Source: a virus
Direction: 5' to 3' (one strand)
DNA: 28,134 nt
Virus record (IMG/VR): IMGVR_UViG_3300049893_003211
Coordinates: 1-28,134 of that record
The first letter of the stretch is position 1, and each line of letters starts with the position of its first letter. A program made the translations under genes and the position numbers. Below, in pieces: positions 1-27,924 of the stretch. Under the pieces are notes generated by a model that made no database searches, was not told the origin of the DNA, and was given only the letters and a program-made list of their open reading frames with translations.

Positions 1-167
1 CCTTTTAGAGAAGGGAATAAAGCAGTCATTAGTCCAGTCTGAGAAAACAAAGCATTTCTCGGATCAAATCTTTGCATGTTTAATTGATTGTAAGCACCAC
101 TTAAAGAAGTAGCGGCACTTTTGCCCGATTGTCTTTGGGCACGAACTAAGTCTGTAAATGATGCCAT
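1..167 (-). CDS. Probable tape-measure/hub virion protein, N-terminal fragment (partial)
   Basis: The reading frame opens with ATG at 167-165 on the minus strand, 2 nt after the stop of the gp51-type gene, and runs off the left edge of the window. About 55 residues are visible, beginning MASFTDLVRAQRQSGKSAAT and containing an RFDPRN segment near residue 33 and LFPSLKG at the end. I do not recognise the family from this fragment with certainty. The case for a tape-measure or hub protein is positional: in contractile and long-tailed phages the tape-measure gene directly follows the tail-assembly chaperone pair, and here it follows gp26- and gp51-type genes. There is no strong Shine-Dalgarno, only a purine-rich AGAGATAAAA, so translation is probably coupled to the upstream gene. 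It could instead be another large virion protein. Confidence 0.6.
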   Translation of the reverse strand, partial: MASFTDLVRAQRQSGKSAATSLSGAYNQLNMQRFDPRNALFSQTGLMTALFPSLK

Positions 168-169
168 TT

Positions 170-313
170 TTATCTCTTACTCTTTGTTATTTTTTCTTGT
201 TGTAGTTTTTCGTTTTCTTCTTTAATAAAGTTGATCAACATAGTCACATAAACACTCTTTTCCCAAGGTAACATATTTTCAATGTCACTCAAATTATATT
301 TGTGATGCTGCAT
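170..313 (-). CDS. gp51: gp51-type baseplate hub assembly / tail-chaperone-like protein, possibly a -1 frameshift extension of gp26
   Basis: From the only in-frame ATG (313-311) this is 47 residues, beginning MQHHKYNLSDIENMLPWEKS and ending in a charged helix (KEENEKLQQEK). The short length, the LPWE motif followed by a hydrophobic helix, and the place right after a gp26-type gene match T4 gp51, which acts catalytically in hub assembly and is not a major virion component. The same frame is open without a stop back into the end of the gp26 gene at 370, encoding a plausible coding segment (YDNLKNYFETNFAL) before that ATG. No Shine-Dalgarno precedes the ATG. The upstream gene ends with a slippery T TTT TTC at 376-370, so this protein may be made wholly or mainly as a gp26-gp51 fusion of about 309 residues. 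If so, its role is that of a tape-measure chaperone pair. The function is inferred from family and context. Confidence 0.7.
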   Translation of the reverse strand: MQHHKYNLSDIENMLPWEKSVYVTMLINFIKEENEKLQQEKITKSKR

Positions 314-363
314 TAGTGCAAAGTTAGTTTCAAAGTAATTCTTCAGATTATCATAACAAAAGG

Positions 364-1098
364 TTATACGAAAAAACTTTGGAGTCCTTCAATCGTAATC
401 GTTTCTTGATAACCACACTTAGTACAACTAAAATCAACATCTTTTTTAATCTTAGGCATTGTCTCAAAAAACTCTTGTACCTTACTGAATTGTTCTCTTG
501 TTAGGTTTTCAATAAAATCAAGAAGTTCTTTTTTGGGTACATCTTTTGAATAAAAAATAGTTTCTTCTGTGTACACACCATCAATACATGCTACAAGTAT
601 GTTCATTAGTTTATCAACTTCAGAACCTTCTTGTTTTTGTGCTTCTTCTACCATTTTGAAAGATGGATACTTGATCAGTATGCCCATGTTTTGACTGAGT
701 TCAATCTTGTCTATCTTCTTTTCGTGAACCTCTGGTCGTATCTCAAGCAAGTTCATCTGAAGTGTTACAATATTGCCACACTCTTTCTGTTCACCATTCG
801 CATCAATTTTATTGTTACAGCGATAAGGTAGTTCAACAATTTCGTTCACTGATCTTGCTCTTAGATTCAGAAACAAATATTCAATATCTGTAATAGGCAG
901 GTCGTCTACATTCAAATCATCTAAGCAGCAGTTGGTCAATATTTGTTTGATCGCCAAAAGAACTGCATCAGACTCTTCACTCTCCATTGCCATTAAAAGA
1001 ATCTTTTCTTCTTTTACTAAGAAAGGTCTAAATCTAATTGATTTTTTTGTTAATGGTAAAATCAATTCATAAATCGGTACATCTATTTTGGGTAACAT
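364..1098 (-). CDS. gp26: gp26-type T4 baseplate protein / tail assembly protein
   Basis: This 244-residue protein has the start typical of the T4 gp26 baseplate family, with a motif like IYELILPLTKKSIRFRPFLV at residues 9-28 followed by KEEKILLMA. Cys94, Cys107, Cys225 and Cys228 form a possible four-cysteine metal site, the last two in a CTKCGY knuckle just before the C-terminal EGLQSFFV. In T4, gp26 acts in assembly of the central baseplate hub together with gp51, gp27, gp28 and gp29. Here it lies between a tail-tube-type gene and the gp51-type frame, which fits. The start is backed by a GTGAGG Shine-Dalgarno 6-8 nt upstream. Its last codons, AGT TTT TTC GTA TAA, contain a -1 slippery heptamer, treated separately. 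Family assignment is confident; the metal site is inferred. Confidence 0.85.
   Translation of the reverse strand: MLPKIDVPIYELILPLTKKSIRFRPFLVKEEKILLMAMESEESDAVLLAIKQILTNCCLDDLNVDDLPITDIEYLFLNLRARSVNEIVELPYRCNNKIDANGEQKECGNIVTLQMNLLEIRPEVHEKKIDKIELSQNMGILIKYPSFKMVEEAQKQEGSEVDKLMNILVACIDGVYTEETIFYSKDVPKKELLDFIENLTREQFSKVQEFFETMPKIKKDVDFSCTKCGYQETITIEGLQSFFV
370..376 (-). promoter_or_regulatory. Candidate -1 ribosomal frameshift slippery site (T TTT TTC)
   Basis: On the minus strand the zero-frame codons TTT TTC of the gp26 gene are preceded by T, giving the X XXY YYZ heptamer T TTT TTC. It sits two codons before the gp26 stop. A -1 slip here enters the gp51 frame and stays open to 170. A short stem, ATAAC (367-363) paired with GTTAT (357-353), follows 2 nt later, but it is weak and closer than the usual spacer. 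The heptamer and the frames are seen directly; use by ribosomes is inferred. Confidence 0.5.
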
Positions 1099-2900: not shown

Positions 2901-4232
2901 ATGGCATTTTTCGGTCTTTCAGACATAAGATTTAATTATTCAGAAACTCGTACATTTGGACCACTATCCGTTTTAGATGCTGTTGGTGGTGGATTCAAAC
3001 AAAATGCCTTAAAATATCCCTTAGATGTTGGTAGCGCAGATAAAGGTCATTACATGATATTCTTTGTGCGTCAACAAAAAGAGACACAGTTTTCCGCTGC
3101 TTATCGTGGCGGTCAAGTCTTCGATTCAAATGCTGAGAAGGCTATTCAAGATCAATTATCGAAAGGTGTTTCCGTTTCAAATAGAATCTCTACAAGCACA
3201 GTCAGAAGTTCTTTTGCTGACAAGATTAATAAGGGTGTTGAAAATCTAATCTCTGCTGGAACCTCTACAGTGGGAAAATATGGTGGAAGAGTTGGACAAA
3301 AGATTGGTTCTGGTATTGAAGGTTGGATAGGAACAAATAATCCTCCTCAAGTTCCGCTTTCTGGTGAGCAAAGAATAAACGACAATATAACAACATCAGT
3401 CAAACGAATCAGTGACAAAACACCTTTTGGGTTTATCAATAAAACTCAACTTACAACTGATTCAATTGCTTTGTACATGCCAGATACAATTCAGTTTGAT
3501 AGCCGTCAATCGTATGATGGGCTATCTCCTGGTAAAGAGTTACTGGGTCAAGCACTTGTGGCTTTGCCAGGTTTGGTTGATACTTATAGAAATGCTGCAC
3601 CTGGAACAGGCGGTAGAGCAGCTTTAGAGGCAATTAAGAAAACTGGTGCCTTACAGGCACTTGGTGAAAGAGTTATTGGGGGCGTTACGGGCGCTCAAGA
3701 CACAACTCGTCTAGGTGTTTTTGGTGTAACAGGTCGTGTTGTAAACCCAATGCTTGAACTGATTTATAACTCACCTGATTTTCGTCAATTTCAGTTTGAG
3801 TTTTTCTTTTGGCCACGTGATGAAAAAGAAGCGTTAGAAGTTCAAAAAATTATTGATCGTTTTAGGTTTCATCAATCTCCAGAATTGGAAAAAATTTCTG
3901 GTAAACAATCAGGACTTTTGATACCTCCATCCGAGTTTGATATTCAGTTTTTCTATGCGGGTCGTCAAAACCCAAACATACCACCAATAGCATCCTGCAT
4001 ATTAGAAAGCCTACAGGTGAATTATACACCTAGAGGTTTTGCTGCATATGAAGTGCCTGGTGAAAATAATCCAGATTTGGGTCGCACAGGTATGCCGGTT
4101 GGTATTCAGTTGACTCTTCAGTTTAGAGAAACAACTTACGTCACAAAAGAAGATTTTGGTGCCGCTCAAGATTACTCTTCAACAAGAATGAATGTTGAAG
4201 ACAAAAAACAGGGAATATTTGCACAAAAATAA
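2901..4232 (+). CDS. gp48: gp48-type baseplate tail tube cap
   Basis: This 443-residue protein begins MAFFGLSDIRFNYSETRTFG, with LKYPLDVGSADKGHYMIFFV soon after. The C-terminal half has the tube-family core: NPMLELIYNSPDFRQFQFEF, then FWPRDEKEALEVQKIIDRFR, ILESLQVNYTPRG and finally IQLTLQFRETTYVTKEDFG. T4 gp48 (about 364 residues) sits on the hub as the platform on which gp54 and then the gp19 tube polymerise. The glycine- and serine-rich stretch at about 100-150 (GKYGGRVGQKIGSGIEGW) is an extended or flexible segment. It leads the rightward operon, with an AGGA Shine-Dalgarno and a late box upstream, and gp53 follows 3 nt after its stop. The assignment rests on motif layout and on the neighbouring gp53 and gp5 genes; the family call is good. 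Confidence 0.85.
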   Translation: MAFFGLSDIRFNYSETRTFGPLSVLDAVGGGFKQNALKYPLDVGSADKGHYMIFFVRQQKETQFSAAYRGGQVFDSNAEKAIQDQLSKGVSVSNRISTSTVRSSFADKINKGVENLISAGTSTVGKYGGRVGQKIGSGIEGWIGTNNPPQVPLSGEQRINDNITTSVKRISDKTPFGFINKTQLTTDSIALYMPDTIQFDSRQSYDGLSPGKELLGQALVALPGLVDTYRNAAPGTGGRAALEAIKKTGALQALGERVIGGVTGAQDTTRLGVFGVTGRVVNPMLELIYNSPDFRQFQFEFFFWPRDEKEALEVQKIIDRFRFHQSPELEKISGKQSGLLIPPSEFDIQFFYAGRQNPNIPPIASCILESLQVNYTPRGFAAYEVPGENNPDLGRTGMPVGIQLTLQFRETTYVTKEDFGAAQDYSSTRMNVEDKKQGIFAQK

Positions 4233-4235
4233 ACA

Positions 4236-4901
4236 ATGGCAAATTACTTCAATTTTTATCCATCAACCTTTTATAGTGTTGATGCCAACAATAAGGTTGC
4301 ACTTGATGTTGTAACCAATATAATTTCTAGGTTTGCATTTGAAGGTTCTCTTAAAGAAAACTCAAATGTATTTTATCCTTATGAAATAAAAGATTCAGAT
4401 ACTCCCGAATCAATAGCATATAAACTTTATGGTGATGCTGAGAGACACTGGATAGTTTTGCTATTTAATAATATCATTGACCCCCAATATGATTGGCCAT
4501 TGAACTATAATAATTTTATTAGTTATGTAAATGAAAAATATTCGGCTAACGGTGCGGCAAATACGACCGTTCAAACAGGTCTTCAATGGGCGCAAAGTGA
4601 AAACAATGTGCATTCATATTATCAAGTGAACACAAGAAGTTCTGTTGCTATTACTGCCGATAGTAAAACAATCGAAGAGAAGATTCAGATAACGGCAAAC
4701 ACTTATGCCAATGTTATCGTTGGTTCTGTGACTTATACACTAGATAACGGCAAAACAATAACTGAAACCACCAGTAAAGAAAAACTAACATACTATGATT
4801 ATGAAACAGAGGTGAATGAGAACAAGAGAAAAATTAAGCTATTAAAGCCAGAGTTTGCATTTGATGTCTTTGAAGAGTTTAAACAGATCGTTAGAGAATG
4901 A
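4236..4901 (+). CDS. gp53: gp53 baseplate wedge protein
   Basis: This 221-residue protein has the gp53 layout. A short N-terminus (MANYFNFYPSTFYSVD) precedes a LysM-like region at about residues 46-88 that reads YPYEIKDSDTPESIAYKLYG and then AERHWIVLLFNNIIDPQYDW. T4 gp53 (196 residues) clamps neighbouring wedges together around the hub, and the LysM-like fold is known for the family. The C-terminus (EFAFDVFEEFKQIVRE) resembles the usual ending. The middle (about 105-180, rich in N, T and S) looks like a variable loop region. The gene starts 3 nt after gp48 and its stop overlaps the start of the next gene (ATGA), so it is part of one translationally coupled baseplate unit. Confident. Confidence 0.9.
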   Translation: MANYFNFYPSTFYSVDANNKVALDVVTNIISRFAFEGSLKENSNVFYPYEIKDSDTPESIAYKLYGDAERHWIVLLFNNIIDPQYDWPLNYNNFISYVNEKYSANGAANTTVQTGLQWAQSENNVHSYYQVNTRSSVAITADSKTIEEKIQITANTYANVIVGSVTYTLDNGKTITETTSKEKLTYYDYETEVNENKRKIKLLKPEFAFDVFEEFKQIVRE

Positions 4902-6223
4902 CCACATCACTATTAGATTCAACGCAGTTTAAGGTAAAACAAATCTCCATCATGTCTAAAGGTGGTGCTGTTGACATTTCGGCAATTTATGATGAGATTA
5001 ATATTTACGATTCACTGTTTATGCCGATGATGTCGGGAAATATATTACTAACTGATGCTGTTGGTTTATCCAAGGCTTTGAGTTTTGATGGATCTGAAGT
5101 TATTCTAATAGATGTAGAAAAAAGTTCTAACTTTTTGTCTTTTAGAAAGTCTTTTAGAATATACAAACAAACAGATCGCAAGAATGTAAATCAATCAACT
5201 GAAAAATACATTCTTCATTTTGTTGCAGATGAGTTTGTTTTTTCTTTGCAACAAAAGGTAAATCAAAGCTACCAATCAACATACACAGATATCGTTCAGA
5301 AGATTTTATCAACATATCTTAAACTAGAGAATGATAAAAAAGGTTTAATTGAAAACTCCTTTGGTGTAAGAAAAGTTGTCATACCTAACTTATCGCCCAT
5401 AGAAGCAATTGAATGGTGTGCAAAACGTTCATTGGACGGTAAAAATGCTCCTACCTTTGTATTTTTTTCTAACATTTTTGGCTATAATTACGTATCTTTG
5501 TCTTCTCTTTTGAATAAAGATTCAATATTAAAAATTAACTTTGATCCCAAAAACTTGAGTCAAAATGATCCTTTATCAGAGATGAGTACCGCTAGAAGTT
5601 ATGAAATGATATTACAAGGCGATTCTGTTGACAAGATTAGAAGTGGTGTAAATGCTGGTAAGTTTATAGGCTTCGACCCAATTACAAGAAGTTTTGGTGA
5701 AAAAAATGTAACATTTGATGATCATTATGGTATAACAGAACATCTAAACAAAAACCCAAACAGAACAGAGATATTCAACAAAGACAATACGACGAATCTG
5801 ACTTCATTAGATTCTAGAAAAGTATTAAGTATTTTTGGTGCGAATAGAAAGAATAGTAACTATATCAAAAAGTATGATGCCGAGTCCATAACAAAAGTTG
5901 AAAATTACGAAAGTTTTCTTTTTCAGAGAAAAGCTATATTTAAAAATCTGGTGAATAAAAGAATGAAGGTTGTCATGCCTGGTAATTTTCAACTGACATC
6001 GGGTTTTAATGTAGATATTTCAACCTCTGGTTTTAATAGAAAAACTAAAGATTCTCAAAATGAAGAAGTGTCACTGAACGGAAAATATCTGATAGTTGCC
6101 GCAAGACATACAATAACAAATAATAAACATGAAACTTTAATTGAAATTGCTACAGATTCGACTAACAGCTTAGAGGTTTACACAAGCAATCCTCAACAAA
6201 ATGAATTACTCAAAAAGACTTAA
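4898..6223 (+). CDS. gp27-like baseplate hub protein
   Basis: This 441-residue protein has a hub-type beginning: FKVKQISIMSKGGAVDISAI followed by YDSLFMPMMSGNILLTDAVG and later FVADEFVFSLQQKVNQSY. A segment of the type IEAIEWCAKRS near residue 170 is typical of gp27/VgrG-like hub domains, where it leads into the second barrel. In T4-like phages gp27 forms the trimeric torus between the gp5 spike and the tube. The gene ends exactly one base before gp5, so hub ring and spike are made together. T4 gp27 is 391 residues, so the length is close. Sequence similarity to T4 itself is low, and the call rests on the motifs and on being directly upstream of gp5. An unrelated virion protein is a less likely alternative. 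Confidence 0.75.
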   Translation: MTTSLLDSTQFKVKQISIMSKGGAVDISAIYDEINIYDSLFMPMMSGNILLTDAVGLSKALSFDGSEVILIDVEKSSNFLSFRKSFRIYKQTDRKNVNQSTEKYILHFVADEFVFSLQQKVNQSYQSTYTDIVQKILSTYLKLENDKKGLIENSFGVRKVVIPNLSPIEAIEWCAKRSLDGKNAPTFVFFSNIFGYNYVSLSSLLNKDSILKINFDPKNLSQNDPLSEMSTARSYEMILQGDSVDKIRSGVNAGKFIGFDPITRSFGEKNVTFDDHYGITEHLNKNPNRTEIFNKDNTTNLTSLDSRKVLSIFGANRKNSNYIKKYDAESITKVENYESFLFQRKAIFKNLVNKRMKVVMPGNFQLTSGFNVDISTSGFNRKTKDSQNEEVSLNGKYLIVAARHTITNNKHETLIEIATDSTNSLEVYTSNPQQNELLKKT

Positions 6224-13724: not shown

Positions 13725-16700
13725 ATGGCATTAAATTTTAACACAAACCCGTATTACGATGATTTTGATGAAGATAAAAACTTTCATAGAATCTTGTTTA
13801 GACCTGGTCGTGCTGTACAAGCACGTGAATTGACACAATCACAAACCATTCTTCAAAATCAAATTGATCGTTTTGGTAAGCATATATTCAAAGAGGGGTC
13901 AATAGTAACGGGCGGTGAAACTTTTGATGAAGATGCAATTTCCATCAAATTACAACCAACTTTTGGTAATACTACAATTGATATTTCTACCTATGATGGT
14001 TATTATGCTATAGCTAACAGTAGTAACGCTGTATATAAAATCAAAAAAGCAGAGGTTGCGGATAGTGTTGATCCTAATACACTACTTGTGAAGTTCATAA
14101 AAACATCAGGTGTTTCTTCACTCAATTCGAATGGCTCTATTGCTAATTCTGAAACTCTAAGAATATACTCAACTGCTGATTTAGCTTCATCAAATCTAGT
14201 TGGCAATGTTTTGACTTCTTCTACAGAATCTTCTACTATTGGAAGAGTGTTTTCAATTACCGAAGGTGTATTTTTCACAAACGGCATTTTTGTTAAAAAT
14301 GCTAGTCAAACTGTAACCGTTTCAAAGTATACAAACAATGCAAATGTAACAGTTGGATTTGACGTTGCTGAAACAATTGTAACTTCATCATCAGACTCTT
14401 CATTGCTTGATCCTGCAATAGGCGCATCAAATTATATTGCACCAGGTGCAGATAGATATAAAGTTTCATTGTCATTGAGTGCAAAAGAAATTGATCCTAA
14501 TCAGTCGATACCTGATTTGACCAGTGAAAAATATATTGAGATTGCTCGTTATAGAAATGGTGAATTAGTAAAGAATGTACAAAAAACAGATTATTCGGTT
14601 TTAGAAAAAACACTTGCACGAAGAACATTTGATGAGTCTGGAAATTACAGAGTAAATGGTTTAGAACCTAGAGTTGCACCAGAAAAGTTTACTGATACTG
14701 CAAACACAACATTCATTTTAGATGTAAGTCCAGGAAAGGCTTACATTCAAGGATATGAAGTTGAACCAATATCAATAAACTCACTTATTATTAACAAAGC
14801 ACGTGATACTGAAACTGTTTCTGGTTATGATGTGCCTGCTTATTATGGCAACTATTTTTATGTGACAACTGCCAACGGCGCCGTCATAAACTTTTCTACT
14901 GCCGAAAAACTTGAGTTACATAGAAATACAGGTGCTTTTAGTGCATCAACAAAAATTGCAGAAGCATATCCTAAAAACCTTGAATACGTAAGTGGTAATG
15001 GTTCAACATCAATTTATAAATTACAGTTATTCAATATTGTAAAAACAAGCAATACACCGATAGATTTGACTCGTTGCATTATTGCTGGAAACTCTACCTC
15101 TGTAAACGCCACTTGCAATGTTGATTCAAGTTCAACAATTGTAAGAACAATCAATGGCTCAAACTATTCATACTCAAATGTAATTAATTTGGCAAGTTCA
15201 ACAGGCGTTACTGTTGGCATGGAAGTTTCAGGTACAAATATTTCATTCCCAACTTATGTAACTGCTATTAACGGTAATGATATTACTGTAAGCGGCAATC
15301 CTGTTGGTAATAATACTTTACAATCATTCACATTTAGATCGGCCTTTTTAACTGATACTTCATATGATGCATCCGTTTTTGAAGCATCTTACGATGTAAT
15401 CAAACAATTCTCACAAGTTAATTATTATGCTAAACGTGTATTCAAATCAGTTTCATTTGTTGCTGGTGTTGCTTCAGTTCAGACAAATGATGGTACAGAG
15501 AGATTTGCTAATGTAAGCGGTGCAAATCTACAGAAACATTATGCTATTTGTATTCGCACTGGCGGCACAGGTTCATTTCCTAATTTTACGTGGGTCAATT
15601 TGAGTGGTGGTACATACATCACTGTACCCTCACCTTCAGTTGGTTCTCCTGCAACGCTGAATATAAATCTTGGTGATGCAACATTCAATGGTACGGCAGA
15701 TATTCTAACTACTCTTGATATTACCGCAGCAGTAAGAAGAACGAAAACACTATCATCAAACAATATCAAATACTTTACGGTATTAGATTCTGCAAATACG
15801 TTCTCTTTAGGTTATGCTGATGTGATCAATGTTTCGGCAATTTATATTGCTACTGGCTCCAATACAGCAACAAATGCTAACGTAAACGTGGTTGGAAGTT
15901 TTGATATTGATCTTGGTCAAAGAGATAGTTTTTATGACCATGCCACAATCAAGTTGAAGACTGGTGCTACTGTAAACACTGGCAATACAATGGTTGTATT
16001 CAACCGTTATACTCATTCAGGTACAGGATTCTTCGATACACAATCTTACCCATCATACAACACAATTCCAAGTTATACAAAAACAAACGGCACAATCATC
16101 GATCTGAGAGATTCAATAGACTTCAGACCGATTAGAACAGCAAATACTACATCAAATGTTTATTCGAATCTTTCAATGTCATTTGCTTCACAGCAAATTG
16201 TAGATTCGGTTATTGGTTCTGTTGACACCGATTTGGAATATTATCTTGGAAGAACAGATAAAGTTGTAATAAAGAGTGATGAAAGTTTCAAGGTAATTGA
16301 AGGTGTAAGTGCAGCGACAAATCCACCTGTACCAAATGATGAAACAGATGCAATGACTCTTTGCACTTTGACTATTCAACCATACACATATGAAATTAGC
16401 AATGTGGCACTGAATATTCAAAATAATAGACGTTACACAATGAAAGACATTGGTGCTATTGATAATCGACTGACAAGAGTTGAGTATTATACCGCACTGA
16501 ATCTTTTAGAAAAAGATATCGCAACTACAACTTACTATGATGATCGTAATAATCAACTATTTAATAATGGTTTTATTGTTGATCCTTTCAAAGGTCACGG
16601 AATAGGTGATGTTTTCAATCCGGATTATAAATGTTCAATTGACTTTGATAACGAGATTCTCAGACCTAGATTTGAGAGTAATGGCACTTCGTTGATTATT

Positions 16701-19082
16701 TCAAGTAATACACTGGCAGTCACAAGTAATCTACTCACTTTGACTTACACTTCTGTTCCATATATTACACAAAACGTGGCTTCTGGGACAACTAATGTAA
16801 ATCCATTCAATGTGATTGGCTTTATTGGATATGTGAAGTTGCCAAAAGATACTGGAACATGGGTGAATTTTGATAAAAGACCTGACGTTGTAGTAAACAA
16901 AAATAAGAATTTAGACAATTATCTTTATTCAAATAATTTTACAGGTTCGGCTTGGAATAACTGGAGTATTTTAGGATATCCTGATGATAACATTGTAGTT
17001 TACACTTATTATTCAACATCGGGACAAGCACTTAATTCAACGACTGACGGAAGAATAAAAAATGAAGATAGTGCAATTGTTGAAGATAAGATATATGTTT
17101 ATAGCGCCAATAATGTAATCAATTTTGAATTATTTGGCATGAGACCAAATACTGAAATGACTTTATATGTTGACTCAAGACATATTGGTAGCTATCTAAG
17201 AAATTATAATGTTTCTTCAAATACGTATACCACAGAGGCTTTAGTTACAAATACTAATGGCTATGCAAAAGGTCAGTTTACATTGCCTTATGATGACAAC
17301 AATAAGTTTGTTGCAGGAGAAAAACATCTCTATTTCTGCGACAATCGTTTGAGTATGGAAAACGTAACTACTTTTGCTGAGACATATTTCTATACTGCCT
17401 TCCCTAAGAAGAAGAAAAAGAAGAAGAAAAAGAAAACGCCGGTATCTAACTTAACGGTAATTGGTAATGATGGAGGTGCTGGACCACCAGCACCTGGTAT
17501 TTACATTGATAGCAGTGCGCCCACATACACAACCAGTGTAGCAATTGGTGCCGCTGCTGCTACAGGCGGTACAAGAATGAATGGAACCAGTGACTTTAAA
17601 AAGGCGGTTCAAGATTTAACTGGAAGTGCTTGGACATCAACGGATGCGGGAACAGCCTCAACACGTGCTAGTGCTGCAAACGATACGATTGTTAATCTTT
17701 ATAAAAATGAATTAGGTAGATTACCTGATCAAGACGGACACAATTATTGGGTTTCTGTTGCAGCAAGTGGTGTTTCTACTGAAAAACTGACTGAAGCATT
17801 TAAAGCAGCGGCTAAGGCAAACAATGAAAAATGTCAGAACGGTGATCCATTAGCACAAACTTTCTTTGTTAATGAGTTCACTAATCCAAATGGAATATTT
17901 GTTTCTAGTATTGACCTTTATTTTGCAACAAAAGATACTTCTGGCATTCCAGTTGAAATTGAACTTCGTCCAAGTGTCAATGGATTCCCGGATGCCGAGA
18001 ATGTAATTCCTGGTTCAAGAGTAACACTGAATCCTAGCCAGGTAAATCTGCCTGTTACAGCAAATACTCCAGTGGCAACAAGATTTACTTTTGATTCTCC
18101 AATTTATTTGGAACCAGATGAGTATTCTTTTGTTGTTATGGCACAATCTGATGCATACAATGTTTATGTTGGAACTGTTGGTCAGCAAAGAATTGATGGC
18201 ACTGGACCAATCGTATCTCAACCATACATCGGCTCTTTCTTCAAATCGCAGAATGCATCTACATGGACGCCAGAACAATCTACTGATATTTGTTTTGTTT
18301 TGAACAAATGTGAGTTCGCTACAAACACAAATCAAACTGCTGTTCTAACTCCTGTTGCTCTTGGATATGACCAATTGTATGATGTTGCAAAAGTAAGTAT
18401 TCCTTTTAACTCCGTAGCAGCAGCGGCAAACATTTCATTTGATTTGTCTACGAAAAATAATGGTGCTGGAGTTTTGAGCGATTATGTTGGAATAATTCCT
18501 AATCGTAACATTTCATTAGATCAAAGAAAGACGATCAATGCGGCAACAGATGCTAATGTCAAGATTAGAATGATAACAACTAATCCAGACGTTTCACCTT
18601 ATGTTGATGTATCAAGTTCAAATTATATTGTCGTAAAGAACTTGTTGGAAAGTTCAGCATCAGCAAATGTAACGACTTATCCAGAAACTTTATCGTCTAA
18701 TGGTGGTGCTTTGTCTAAGTACATCACAAGAAAAGTTACGTTGAATGATGGATTTGATGCCACATCATTGAGGGTTTACCTGCAAGAAAACTTACCTCAA
18801 GGTTCTTCAATTCAAGTTTATTACCGTGTTCAGGCGGCAACTGATTCAGACAAACTAGAAAACAAGCCTTGGACATTGATGACACTTAATGGAACATCTT
18901 CAACAAATCAAAATCCAACCGAATACTATGATTATGAGTATAAGGTTAATGGTGTCAGCTATTCATCGGGTGGTGTGACATATACAAACTTTAGAACATT
19001 TGCAATCAAGATTGTACTTTATTCCACAAACCCAGCCAATGCACCAACGGCTAAGAACTTGAGAGCAATTGCACTGTCATGA
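13725..19082 (+). CDS. Giant DUF4815-type virion protein with Lys10 tract and DUF4214-like domain
   Basis: This is a 1785-residue baseplate or fibre-connecting structural protein. The N-terminus, PYYDDFDEDKNFHRILFRPG then RAVQARELTQSQTILQNQID, is the beginning of the DUF4815 family found beside gp8 in marine T4-like phages. A conserved core runs to about residue 1225. There the text breaks: Pro1227 is followed by ten lysines (1228-1237), a Gly/Pro/Ala-rich linker, and a DUF4214-like helical segment (VNLYKNELGRLPDQDGHNYW, about 1325-1365). The sequence then resumes with DPLAQTFFVNEFTNPNGIFV and a SIDLYFATKD beta domain typical of the family. T4 gp9/gp10, which link wedges to fibres, would be the positional counterparts, but homology to them is not evident. 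An AAGG Shine-Dalgarno lies 10 nt upstream. The exact role is inferred. Confidence 0.82.
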   Translation: MALNFNTNPYYDDFDEDKNFHRILFRPGRAVQARELTQSQTILQNQIDRFGKHIFKEGSIVTGGETFDEDAISIKLQPTFGNTTIDISTYDGYYAIANSSNAVYKIKKAEVADSVDPNTLLVKFIKTSGVSSLNSNGSIANSETLRIYSTADLASSNLVGNVLTSSTESSTIGRVFSITEGVFFTNGIFVKNASQTVTVSKYTNNANVTVGFDVAETIVTSSSDSSLLDPAIGASNYIAPGADRYKVSLSLSAKEIDPNQSIPDLTSEKYIEIARYRNGELVKNVQKTDYSVLEKTLARRTFDESGNYRVNGLEPRVAPEKFTDTANTTFILDVSPGKAYIQGYEVEPISINSLIINKARDTETVSGYDVPAYYGNYFYVTTANGAVINFSTAEKLELHRNTGAFSASTKIAEAYPKNLEYVSGNGSTSIYKLQLFNIVKTSNTPIDLTRCIIAGNSTSVNATCNVDSSSTIVRTINGSNYSYSNVINLASSTGVTVGMEVSGTNISFPTYVTAINGNDITVSGNPVGNNTLQSFTFRSAFLTDTSYDASVFEASYDVIKQFSQVNYYAKRVFKSVSFVAGVASVQTNDGTERFANVSGANLQKHYAICIRTGGTGSFPNFTWVNLSGGTYITVPSPSVGSPATLNINLGDATFNGTADILTTLDITAAVRRTKTLSSNNIKYFTVLDSANTFSLGYADVINVSAIYIATGSNTATNANVNVVGSFDIDLGQRDSFYDHATIKLKTGATVNTGNTMVVFNRYTHSGTGFFDTQSYPSYNTIPSYTKTNGTIIDLRDSIDFRPIRTANTTSNVYSNLSMSFASQQIVDSVIGSVDTDLEYYLGRTDKVVIKSDESFKVIEGVSAATNPPVPNDETDAMTLCTLTIQPYTYEISNVALNIQNNRRYTMKDIGAIDNRLTRVEYYTALNLLEKDIATTTYYDDRNNQLFNNGFIVDPFKGHGIGDVFNPDYKCSIDFDNEILRPRFESNGTSLIISSNTLAVTSNLLTLTYTSVPYITQNVASGTTNVNPFNVIGFIGYVKLPKDTGTWVNFDKRPDVVVNKNKNLDNYLYSNNFTGSAWNNWSILGYPDDNIVVYTYYSTSGQALNSTTDGRIKNEDSAIVEDKIYVYSANNVINFELFGMRPNTEMTLYVDSRHIGSYLRNYNVSSNTYTTEALVTNTNGYAKGQFTLPYDDNNKFVAGEKHLYFCDNRLSMENVTTFAETYFYTAFPKKKKKKKKKKTPVSNLTVIGNDGGAGPPAPGIYIDSSAPTYTTSVAIGAAAATGGTRMNGTSDFKKAVQDLTGSAWTSTDAGTASTRASAANDTIVNLYKNELGRLPDQDGHNYWVSVAASGVSTEKLTEAFKAAAKANNEKCQNGDPLAQTFFVNEFTNPNGIFVSSIDLYFATKDTSGIPVEIELRPSVNGFPDAENVIPGSRVTLNPSQVNLPVTANTPVATRFTFDSPIYLEPDEYSFVVMAQSDAYNVYVGTVGQQRIDGTGPIVSQPYIGSFFKSQNASTWTPEQSTDICFVLNKCEFATNTNQTAVLTPVALGYDQLYDVAKVSIPFNSVAAAANISFDLSTKNNGAGVLSDYVGIIPNRNISLDQRKTINAATDANVKIRMITTNPDVSPYVDVSSSNYIVVKNLLESSASANVTTYPETLSSNGGALSKYITRKVTLNDGFDATSLRVYLQENLPQGSSIQVYYRVQAATDSDKLENKPWTLMTLNGTSSTNQNPTEYYDYEYKVNGVSYSSGGVTYTNFRTFAIKIVLYSTNPANAPTAKNLRAIALS

Positions 19083-24904: not shown

Positions 24905-26077
24905 ATGGCATCTCGTCGTACTGCTGGCTTTGTTTCCGCCTTCTATAATCCGCTACAAGTTCCCGATGCGCCTACTAGTGTAAGCGCATCTGCTGGTGAT
25001 TCATCAGCAACAGTATCATTTACCGCACCAACAAATACTGGTGGTGGGTCGATTACTGGATATGGTGTTGTATCAAATACAGGAATTTCTAGTACAGGTT
25101 CGGCATCTCCAATTAGTGTCTCTGGATTAACAAATGGTAGTTCTTATACATTTCGTGTTTGGGCTTTAAATAGTTATGGACCTAGTCCTTTTAGCGGTGC
25201 AAGTGCAAGTGTAACACCTTTTCCCAAAGGAATTATGGCTGGTGGTGATGGTGGTTCAAATGTCATTCAATACGTAGACATATCTACAACAGGAAATGCG
25301 CTTGATTTTGGAGATTTAATTAGCGGCAGTCAATATGGACAAGCCGCTTGTGCGAGTTCTACAAGAGGTGTATTTGCTGGTGGAGGAACTTCAAGACAAA
25401 ACGTTATTCAATATATCACCATTTCAACTTCAGGCAATGCGCTTGATTTCGGAGACTTAATAAATCCAGTATATGATCTTGGTGGACTATCAAACAGTAC
25501 ACGGGGTGTTTTTGGTGGGGGTGATTCTTCTGTAGGTGATTCTAATGTAATTCAATATATTACAATTGCTTCAACAGGTAATTCTACTGATTTTGGAGAT
25601 TTGTTGGGGGTTGTTAGGATTTTATCTGCGTGTGCCTCTTCAACAAGAGGTATTTTTGCAGGTGGAGTTACAACTAATGTAATTCAATATATTACAATTG
25701 ATTCAACTGGTAACGCTATAGATTTTGGTGATCTTACCGTAGCACGATATGGTTTAGGTGGATGTTCTACATCTACAAGAGGAGTTTTTGCTGGTGGAAG
25801 AAGTCCTTCATATGAAAGCACCATCGACTATATAACAATCGCATCAACTGGCAATGCTGTCAGTTTTGGTAATCTTACTGTGGCTCGTAGCAATTTACCT
25901 GGATGTTCTTCAACAATAAGAGGTGTTTTTTCTGGTGGCCTTAACTCAAGCGTAGTTGACGTTAATGTTATTGATTTTATTACTATTGCTTCTACAGGCA
26001 ACGCCACCGACTTTGGTGATTTACTAGTTGCGAATAAAGCCTTGAGTTCTTGTTCTAACGCTCACGGAGGACTATAA
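24905..26077 (+). CDS. Cassette B adhesin 1: FN3 domain plus six-repeat propeller-like fibre
   Basis: This 390-residue protein has a short start (MASRRTAGFVSAFYNPLQVP), one fibronectin type III domain at about residues 18-104 (PDAPTSVSASAGDSSATVSF to GLTNGSSYTFRVWALNSYGP), and then six repeats of about 45-50 residues from residue 108. Each repeat has the pattern RG(V/I)FAGG - (N)VIQYITIASTGN - DFGDL, as in NVIQYITIASTGNSTDFGDL. The last ends CSNAHGGL rather than CxSSTRGVF. Six such kelch-like blades suggest a single six-bladed beta-propeller on an FN3 stalk, a receptor-binding tip. Related repeats occur in marine T4-like fibre genes. The last codons encode the Shine-Dalgarno of the next gene, whose start overlaps the stop (TAATG). 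Confidence 0.82.
   Translation: MASRRTAGFVSAFYNPLQVPDAPTSVSASAGDSSATVSFTAPTNTGGGSITGYGVVSNTGISSTGSASPISVSGLTNGSSYTFRVWALNSYGPSPFSGASASVTPFPKGIMAGGDGGSNVIQYVDISTTGNALDFGDLISGSQYGQAACASSTRGVFAGGGTSRQNVIQYITISTSGNALDFGDLINPVYDLGGLSNSTRGVFGGGDSSVGDSNVIQYITIASTGNSTDFGDLLGVVRILSACASSTRGIFAGGVTTNVIQYITIDSTGNAIDFGDLTVARYGLGGCSTSTRGVFAGGRSPSYESTIDYITIASTGNAVSFGNLTVARSNLPGCSSTIRGVFSGGLNSSVVDVNVIDFITIASTGNATDFGDLLVANKALSSCSNAHGGL
26066..26071 (+). promoter_or_regulatory. Shine-Dalgarno GGAGGA coded by the C-terminal HGGL of adhesin 1
   Basis: The codons CAC GGA GGA CTA TAA at the end of the first propeller adhesin contain GGAGGA, 5 nt before the ATG of the second adhesin, whose A overlaps the stop. The same HGGL ending and GGAGGA occur at 27913-27918 before the third fibre gene. 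Confidence 0.85.
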
Positions 26078-27924
26078 TGCCTAGTTATTCCGGCGTTTGG
26101 AACATCAACGAAGTTTTTCAAGCCGTGGGGCAGGATTTGTGGCCATACTCACCTACGAATGGTCCCATTGGATTGTTTGCTGGTGGTAGTTCAGTCACTA
26201 ATGTAATCAACAGAATAATAATTTCGACTGCTGGTGATGCTACAGACTTCGGTGATTTGACAGTTGCTAGATATAATTTATGTGCCTTTGGTTCAAATAT
26301 TAGAGGAGTTTGGGCGGGCGGTGAAATATCAGGACTTGCTGGAGGACGTTTAAATACTATAGATTATGTAACATATACAACCGCCGGTGATGCAACAGAT
26401 TTTGGTGATTTGAGTGTTGCAAAAACAGAGGTAGTGGGTGCATCAAATAATGTTCGTGGATTAGTATTTGTTGGTTTTTCTAGTGCTGGAAGCTATTTGA
26501 ATGTTATTGAGTATGTCACTATTTCATCAACAGGAAACACCACGGATTTTGGTGACGCTCTTAATGCGCTAAGAAGAACGAACACTGGTGGATTGGCATC
26601 AAGTACAAGAGCAGTTATTGCGGGAGGGTTTGATGCAAGCCTTGGAGAATTAAATGTAATACAATATGTGACAATTGCCTCCACTGGAAATGCCACGGAT
26701 TTTGGTGATTTATTGGCTACCACAAAACAAGCAGGTGGCGCCGCTTCTGAAACTAGAGGTTTGTTTGCTGGCGGTTATGCGCCATCAGCGCAAGTAAACG
26801 TAATACAATACATCACAATTGCTACAACTGGAAATGCCACAGATTTTGGTGACCTTACTATTGCTGCTCAGTTGTCAGGAGTTGCAAGTTCTACAAGAGC
26901 AGTATTTGGTGGTTATGGTAACACCCTAGCTTATGTAACAATCGCATCAGCCGGAAATGCCATAGATTTTGGTGACTTGACCAATTCTATTACTGATGGT
27001 GCAGCTTGTTCCAACGCCGCTGATGCTGTTCAACTTACACCAACAAGTGCTGCAATGGCGTTGTTCGGTGGCGGAACTGATACCACAAATACGCAAGCCT
27101 CCATTCAGTATGTAAACATAGCTACAACTGGTAATGCTATGATGTTTGGTGAACTGTCTGCTGCTAGATATTATTTGGCCGCATGTGCATCTTCAACACG
27201 TGGTTTATTTGGTGGTGGTGTTTCATTTACAAATGTAATTGATTATGTAACGTTCTCTAGTTTTGGCTTGGCCACTAGTTTCGGTCAATTAACAACTTCA
27301 AGTTGGTATAATTTAGGCGGATTATCAAATGAAACAAGAGGCATTTGGTTTGGCGGCTCAGATGGCGGCAGCAGTTATACGAACGTAATACAATATGTAA
27401 CCATTGCATCAGCAGGAAATGGTACCGATTTTGGTGACTTGACCGTTGGTAGACAGGGTGTTGCTGGGGCGGCAAGCACAACTAGAGGTGTGATGGGTGG
27501 CGGAGCCGCTACAGGTAATGTATTGCAAAATGTGATTGATTATATCACCATAGCCTCTGTCGGAAATGCTACAGATTTTGGTGACTTGGTATCGATAATA
27601 TCATATCCGTCTTCTTGCTCAAGTAGCACAAGGGCGCTTTTTGGTGGCGGTAGTGGTAGTGTTTCTAATATAAATGTAATTCAATATATCACAATTGCAT
27701 CAACAGGTGATACAACAGATTTTGGTGATTTATCGGCCGCTTTAAGATCGTTAAGCGCAACATCCAGCAGTGTAAGAGGTGTTTTTGCGGGTGGTTTGTC
27801 TGGTCCGGTCAATGTTATTCAATATGTAACAATAGATACTACAGGCGATGCTGTTGATTTTGGCGATTTAGCGTATTTAAATTATGGGTCGGCCGGTTGT
27901 TCCAACGCTCACGGAGGATTATAA
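26077..27924 (+). CDS. Cassette B adhesin 2: double six-repeat propeller-like fibre
   Basis: This 615-residue protein begins MPSYSGVWNINEVFQAVGQD and LWPYSPTNG, a short attachment segment of the kind seen at the head of marine fibre genes. From residue 30 there are twelve kelch-like repeats (RG(V/L)FAGG, then NVIQYVTIASTGN, then TDFGDL). After the sixth comes CSNAADAVQLTPTSAAMALF (residues 311-330): CSNA is the terminal motif of the family (CSNAHGGL at the true end), here internal. The protein thus looks like two six-bladed propellers, the second added by fusion or duplication of a six-repeat gene. The C-terminal codons again hold the Shine-Dalgarno for the next fibre gene. A role as a receptor-binding fibre is inferred; it has no FN3 domain, unlike adhesin 1. 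Confidence 0.82.
   Translation: MPSYSGVWNINEVFQAVGQDLWPYSPTNGPIGLFAGGSSVTNVINRIIISTAGDATDFGDLTVARYNLCAFGSNIRGVWAGGEISGLAGGRLNTIDYVTYTTAGDATDFGDLSVAKTEVVGASNNVRGLVFVGFSSAGSYLNVIEYVTISSTGNTTDFGDALNALRRTNTGGLASSTRAVIAGGFDASLGELNVIQYVTIASTGNATDFGDLLATTKQAGGAASETRGLFAGGYAPSAQVNVIQYITIATTGNATDFGDLTIAAQLSGVASSTRAVFGGYGNTLAYVTIASAGNAIDFGDLTNSITDGAACSNAADAVQLTPTSAAMALFGGGTDTTNTQASIQYVNIATTGNAMMFGELSAARYYLAACASSTRGLFGGGVSFTNVIDYVTFSSFGLATSFGQLTTSSWYNLGGLSNETRGIWFGGSDGGSSYTNVIQYVTIASAGNGTDFGDLTVGRQGVAGAASTTRGVMGGGAATGNVLQNVIDYITIASVGNATDFGDLVSIISYPSSCSSSTRALFGGGSGSVSNINVIQYITIASTGDTTDFGDLSAALRSLSATSSSVRGVFAGGLSGPVNVIQYVTIDTTGDAVDFGDLAYLNYGSAGCSNAHGGL
27913..27918 (+). promoter_or_regulatory. Shine-Dalgarno GGAGGA coded by the C-terminal HGGL of adhesin 2
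   Basis: GGAGGA within the CAC GGA GGA TTA TAA ending of the second propeller adhesin lies 9 nt before the ATG at 27928. It repeats the arrangement at 26066-26071 and decides the start of the third fibre gene. Confidence 0.85.

Follow-up and report, generated by a model that had tools for sequence, protein, structure and literature searches.

A −1 slip on six T residues very probably generates the longer tail helper protein of a marine T4-like phage

A marine T4-like phage very probably makes the longer form of a tail helper protein by a −1 slip on a run of six T residues, as judged from comparisons of the nucleotide and protein sequences. The phage is represented by the IMG/VR virus record IMGVR_UViG_3300049893_003211, of which positions 1 to 28,134 were analysed; this whole stretch of 28,134 nucleotides is referred to as the window. 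With high confidence, −1 ribosomal frameshifting between a gp26-type and a gp51-type reading frame can be taken to yield a pair of tail assembly chaperones (TAC) resembling the G/GT pair of lambda, in which gp26 would represent the short form (TAC-N) and a gp26-51 fusion the long form (TAC-NC). The features of the locus are as follows.

3..167, minus strand: start of the next gene, a tape-measure candidate by position, cut by the end of the window
170..388, minus strand: −1 open frame with the gp51-type C-terminal domain, stop codon at 172-170 (phrog_634, E-value 6e-27)
311..313, minus strand: first ATG of the −1 frame, without a Shine-Dalgarno sequence and lost in some relatives
314..363, minus strand: region separating the gp26 stop from the first −1-frame ATG, with coding character only in the −1 frame
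364..1098, minus strand: gp26-type gene for the putative short chaperone form (TAC-N) of 244 amino acids (PF12322, 8e-60; phrog_150, 4e-64; predicted TAC-like fold of the N-terminal part)
370..376, minus strand: slippery heptamer T TTT TTC with the zero-frame codons TTT TTC
385..390, minus strand: Shine-Dalgarno-like GAAGGA, a candidate frameshift stimulator ending 8 nt upstream of the heptamer
1098 to 370, base 370 re-read, then on to 173, minus strand: predicted fusion of 309 amino acids
1116..1844, minus strand: tail-tube-like gene directly upstream of gp26 (phrog_45, 1e-36; Phage_TTP_2)

The 3' end of the gp26-type gene reads GGA CTC CAA AGT TTT TTC GTA TAA on the minus strand, and direct reading thus confirmed the gene end and the heptamer named in the original prediction, the latter lying in the X XXY YYZ phase of tandem slippage. 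Between 388 and 170, the −1 frame is uninterrupted over 72 codons, counted from stop to stop; it runs through the entire gp51-type domain and gives a fusion of the length that had been estimated. Family searches assign the first frame to the T4 baseplate hub protein gp26 (phrog_150 and PF12322, the latter with 202.6 bits at a curated cut-off of 24.5), and residues 5-67 of the −1 frame to gp51, the baseplate hub assembly catalyst (phrog_634), with the match beginning well ahead of the ATG at 313; a search of the −1 frame against NCBIfam gave just a sub-threshold chance match. The ATG at 313, which had been described as the sole one of this frame, turned out to be the first, with later in-frame Met codons located inside the gp51 domain.

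Five distinct queries, either gp26 or gp51, served to collect related loci from IMG/VR, and named phages were added to these. At all 161 loci with a profile-detectable gp51 beside gp26, gp51 occupies the −1 frame of gp26, and genes in unrelated frames, an outcome named beforehand as contrary evidence, did not occur. The same arrangement is found in all 14 tabulated named phages, which span the Kyanoviridae, KVP40-like phages, Emmerichvirinae, Rhizobiales phages, Delftia phage PhiW-14, Xanthomonas phage X1 and Ackermannviridae-type phages. The suspicion that a one-base assembly error had split a normal in-frame gene, which would agree with the error-prone nature of T-runs and with the in-frame gp51 of T4-type phages, is refuted by the recurrence of the −1 relation at 161 separate loci, including the finished genomes of S-PM2, P-SSM2 and KVP40, and its probability is negligible.

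An in-phase heptamer is present at 125 of the 127 distinct junctions (the window counted in), either as T TTT TTC (106 junctions) or as T TTT TTT (19 junctions), and sits 2-10 codons, mostly three, ahead of the gp26 stop. Both junctions without it belong to Ackermannviridae, and phages of the Ackermannviridae type are the only relatives in which the heptamer was seen to be missing. At other positions of gp26, TTTTTT is found in phase at 30 of 29,242 codons, and 18 of the 140 Phe-Phe pairs there are spelled T-TTT-TTY, compared with 125 of 125 pairs at the slip site. Resampling of synonymous codons according to each gene's own usage predicted T TTT TTN at the slip site in 35% of cases, whereas it was observed in all 22 divergent clusters (<70% nucleotide identity), which were drawn from the 125 heptamer-bearing loci with the exclusion of the Ackermannviridae pair alone. 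On these codon statistics, the conservation of the heptamer is far beyond chance.

The composition of the T-run also bears on whether the ribosome or the RNA polymerase slips. Homopolymer runs of 7-8 T can cause slippage, and 19 of the 125 loci contain runs of seven (13 loci) or eight (six loci), as transcriptional slippage would favor; however, six T are short for a slipping polymerase, and 106 loci show exactly six T followed by C. Moreover, every heptamer has the phase expected for tandem tRNA slippage, and the upstream sequence is enriched in a Shine-Dalgarno-like element, a signal acting on ribosomes. Slippage of the polymerase is therefore regarded as very improbable, and we infer that the ribosome changes frame. 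The upstream element (AGGA, GGAG or GAGG at 5-18 nt from the heptamer) is found at 93 of the 125 loci versus 6% of the control windows. This enrichment partly reflects a conserved Glu-Gly peptide, and the GGA codon is preferred in addition, making up 59% of the Gly codons at this site versus 32% elsewhere. The element occurs in 13 of the 22 divergent clusters and should therefore be regarded as common, but not essential. The weak 5-bp stem which had been noticed downstream of the heptamer is predicted as 6 bp here, but folding of the window sequence was no better than that of shuffled sequences (z +0.1 to +1.8), and the fold of the alignment contained no covarying pairs. A downstream RNA stem is thus not supported as stimulator, and any stimulation would rest on the Shine-Dalgarno-like element or on the heptamer alone. 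It is conceivable, albeit rather doubtful, that marine T4-like phages employ a two-part recoding signal consisting of a Shine-Dalgarno-like GAAGGA or GAGGGA 8 nt upstream and the T6C run, with the Ackermannviridae-type phages using either a different, undescribed slip or a separate start of gp51.

The segment from the gp26 stop to the ATG, which the original prediction had considered to be coding, shows the signature of purifying selection when read in the −1 frame. The alignment is free of gaps from the slip site to the gp51 core, and the −1 frame runs from the gp26 stop to the canonical Met without a stop codon at all of the 125 loci, as compared to 121 and 118 loci with stops in the other two frames; an interruption of the −1 frame had been named as a counter-indication. 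The pN/pS ratio of this stretch is 0.098 in the −1 frame versus 1.2 and 1.9 in the others, and the differences recorded in it from 46 disjoint sequence pairs number 99, 62 and 205 at the first, second and third codon positions of the −1 frame, respectively.

These data have to be weighed against the alternative that gp51 is a separate small protein, whose translation starts at position 313 with the ATG or resumes by reinitiation downstream of the gp26 stop, and that the −1 overlap is incidental. Annotators have called a separate gp51 in many phages, an ATG precedes the gp51 core in 116 of the 125 loci, and the stop of gp26 overlaps with a start in KVP40 and PhiW-14 (TAATG / TGATG), which could permit coupling. 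However, the ATG at 313 lacks a Shine-Dalgarno sequence in the window, as had been noted before, and a good Shine-Dalgarno sequence for gp51 in all relatives did not appear; for the first ATGs of gp26, a match of at least 4 nt was recorded in 112 of 126 cases. The 16 codons preceding the ATG at 313 are those constrained by purifying selection on the −1 frame and are free of stops at all loci, and nine of the 125 loci have no ATG at all before the gp51 core, five of which also lack GTG or TTG and therefore any start codon. Together with the near invariance of the heptamer, the PHROG match starting ahead of the ATG, and the in-frame fusion represented by gp51 of T4, these features render an exclusively separate gp51 very improbable. 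Synthesis of the gp26-51 fusion by frameshifting is thus the preferred reading, while some separate gp51 synthesis may occur in the ATG-bearing loci.

T4 itself does without a frameshift at this locus, since gene 26 and gene 51 are two separate genes located on opposite strands. Both products match phrog_150, gp26 over positions 14-235 and gp51 over positions 13-280 of 282, and gp51 also matches phrog_634. An HMM of the fusion aligns with T4 gp51 over positions 22-283 of 301, in frame across the junction, and with T4 gp26 over positions 10-239, ending at the Phe-Phe pair of the slip site, which is encoded by the non-slippery codons TTC TTT in T4. Since gp51 spans the fusion and gp26 ends at the slip, T4 carries the short and the long form as paralogous genes, with gp26 as homologue of the short form and gp51 as homologue of the whole fusion, in contrast to the one gene plus −1 frame of the window. 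Aeromonas phage Aes012 is arranged like T4, with a short and a long form as two genes. One record contains a T4-type gp51 gene broken mid-gene by a change of frame (L191, positions 1501-2246), probably by a sequencing or assembly error.

The assignment as chaperone is based on the predicted fold of gp26 and on its neighbours. When the window gp26 was modelled with AlphaFold2 (pLDDT 92.5), the best PDB matches were 3fgx (Z 7.7), 2ob9 (Z 7.4), 3klu (Z 6.9), and 5ir0 (Z 5.5), all of them on residues 1-94; they include the tail assembly chaperone gp13 of HK97 (2ob9) and YqbN (3klu). Scores below 8 are moderate, but these four are clearly separated from the next, unrelated entry at Z 2.6. The Foldseek E-values for the TAC matches of this model are not significant on their own, TACs are not among the structural matches listed for a T4-type gp51 model, and neither T4 gp51 nor the window gp26 matched a PDB entry when searched by sequence. 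The model therefore supports a TAC-type fold of the short form with moderate strength. HK97 gp13 superposes on the predicted N-terminal domain over 83 residues with an rmsd of 3.7, yet differs by sharing 11% identity and by the approximately 150 residues which gp26 extends past the shared domain. As to the neighbours, the gene order of tail-tube-like gene, gp26, gp51, and a large gene is common to the window, S-PM2, KVP40, and phiM12 (one small ORF intervening), and family matches in S-PM2 and phiM12 mark the large gene as tape-measure-like there. The corresponding candidate of the phage studied here has no PHROG or NCBIfam match; in the near-identical contig L001, the gene directly after gp51 codes for 692 amino acids (positions 3432-5507).

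The locus resembles that of lambda gpG/gpGT in combining a short protein with a minor extension by −1 frameshifting, which is predicted here, and in the order of tail tube, chaperone, extension, and next large gene. It differs from lambda in that the sequences share no family match and the slippery heptamers are not the same (G GGA AAG in lambda), and gp26 is much larger than lambda gpG and contains a second domain with paired cysteines. The proposed link to the lambda G/GT pair is nevertheless supported by the gene order, the TAC-type fold predicted for gp26, and T4 gp51 as the in-frame equivalent of the fusion. Neither lambda gpG nor gpGT is present in mature virions (PMC5009743); in T4, both gp26 and gp51 have been classed among the hub assembly chaperones, and the latter has been reported to be missing from the final particle (PMC3004832).

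In the mechanism proposed, most ribosomes would terminate at the TAA codon at 366-364 and release gp26 of 244 amino acids as TAC-N, whereas a presumed minority would move one base back on the T TTT TTC at 376-370 by a tandem shift of two Phe-tRNAs from UUU UUC to UUU UUU, and would read on in the −1 frame to produce the 309-amino acid fusion as TAC-NC. By analogy to lambda gpG/gpGT, the N-terminal part common to both forms may coat the tape measure protein, tail-tube or hub subunits may be recruited by the additional C-terminal domain, and the two forms would be released before completion of the virion. The GAAGGA element could act as stimulator of the slip.

Frameshifting in the G-T region has been described as widely conserved "except T4" in a recoding review from 2016 (PMC5009743), and the original prediction regarded frameshifted gp26/gp51 of T4-like phages as possibly undescribed. 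This is contradicted by two papers (PMC10885494, PMC12846349) citing a study by Vladimirov, Gautam & Davidson (2022; Virology 566:9-15), in which T4-like TAC genes were identified. According to these citations, poly-T −1 slip signals occur in T4-like TAC-N genes (PMC12846349), and some T4-like phages do not frameshift but possess a short gene together with a long fusion gene (PMC10885494); as far as the citing papers tell, these TACs belong to the same protein family as those of the window. With both the poly-T slip sites and the two-gene solution attributed to that study, this kind of frameshift appears to be already described in T4-like phages, while the Shine-Dalgarno-like element, the start-less loci, and the heptamer-less variant of the Ackermannviridae may be new. 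The gp51 of marine T4-like phages should very probably be regarded as the C-terminal domain of the long chaperone form rather than as a free-standing "hub assembly catalyst"; genome records usually annotate it as a separate gene or omit it. T4 and its marine relatives would then share one chaperone pair obtained by two routes, either frameshifting from one gene or two paralogous genes.

Some further observations concern the relatives and the remainder of the window. In Aeromonas phage AS-yj (L196), Agrobacterium phage Atu_ph04 (L194), and Xanthomonas phage X1 (L198), a −1 gp51 frame and the heptamer are present, the frame being either unannotated or annotated from an internal start only. In Ackermannviridae and a similar Vibrio phage (L086, L168-L182, L199, L201), a gp51-like −1 frame is kept after gp26, whose gene ends with ATT TTC ATT TAA or CTT TTC AAG TAA and shows no standard slippery heptamer; the gp26 stop of the Vibrio phage appears to overlap an ATG. 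The 692-amino acid tape measure candidate of L001 contains a Gly-rich hydrophobic stretch and, as judged by eye, a part resembling cell-wall-degrading enzymes. Within the window, a 1785-amino acid structural protein (ORF 13725-19082) includes ten Lys codons in a row at 17406-17435 (mixed AAG/AAA), and two adjoining ORFs at 24905-27924 are built of a repeated motif (NVIQYITIASTGNATDFGDL...) and likely code for tail or fibre proteins composed of repeats; the first ORF starts with a stretch that looks fibronectin-III-like by eye.
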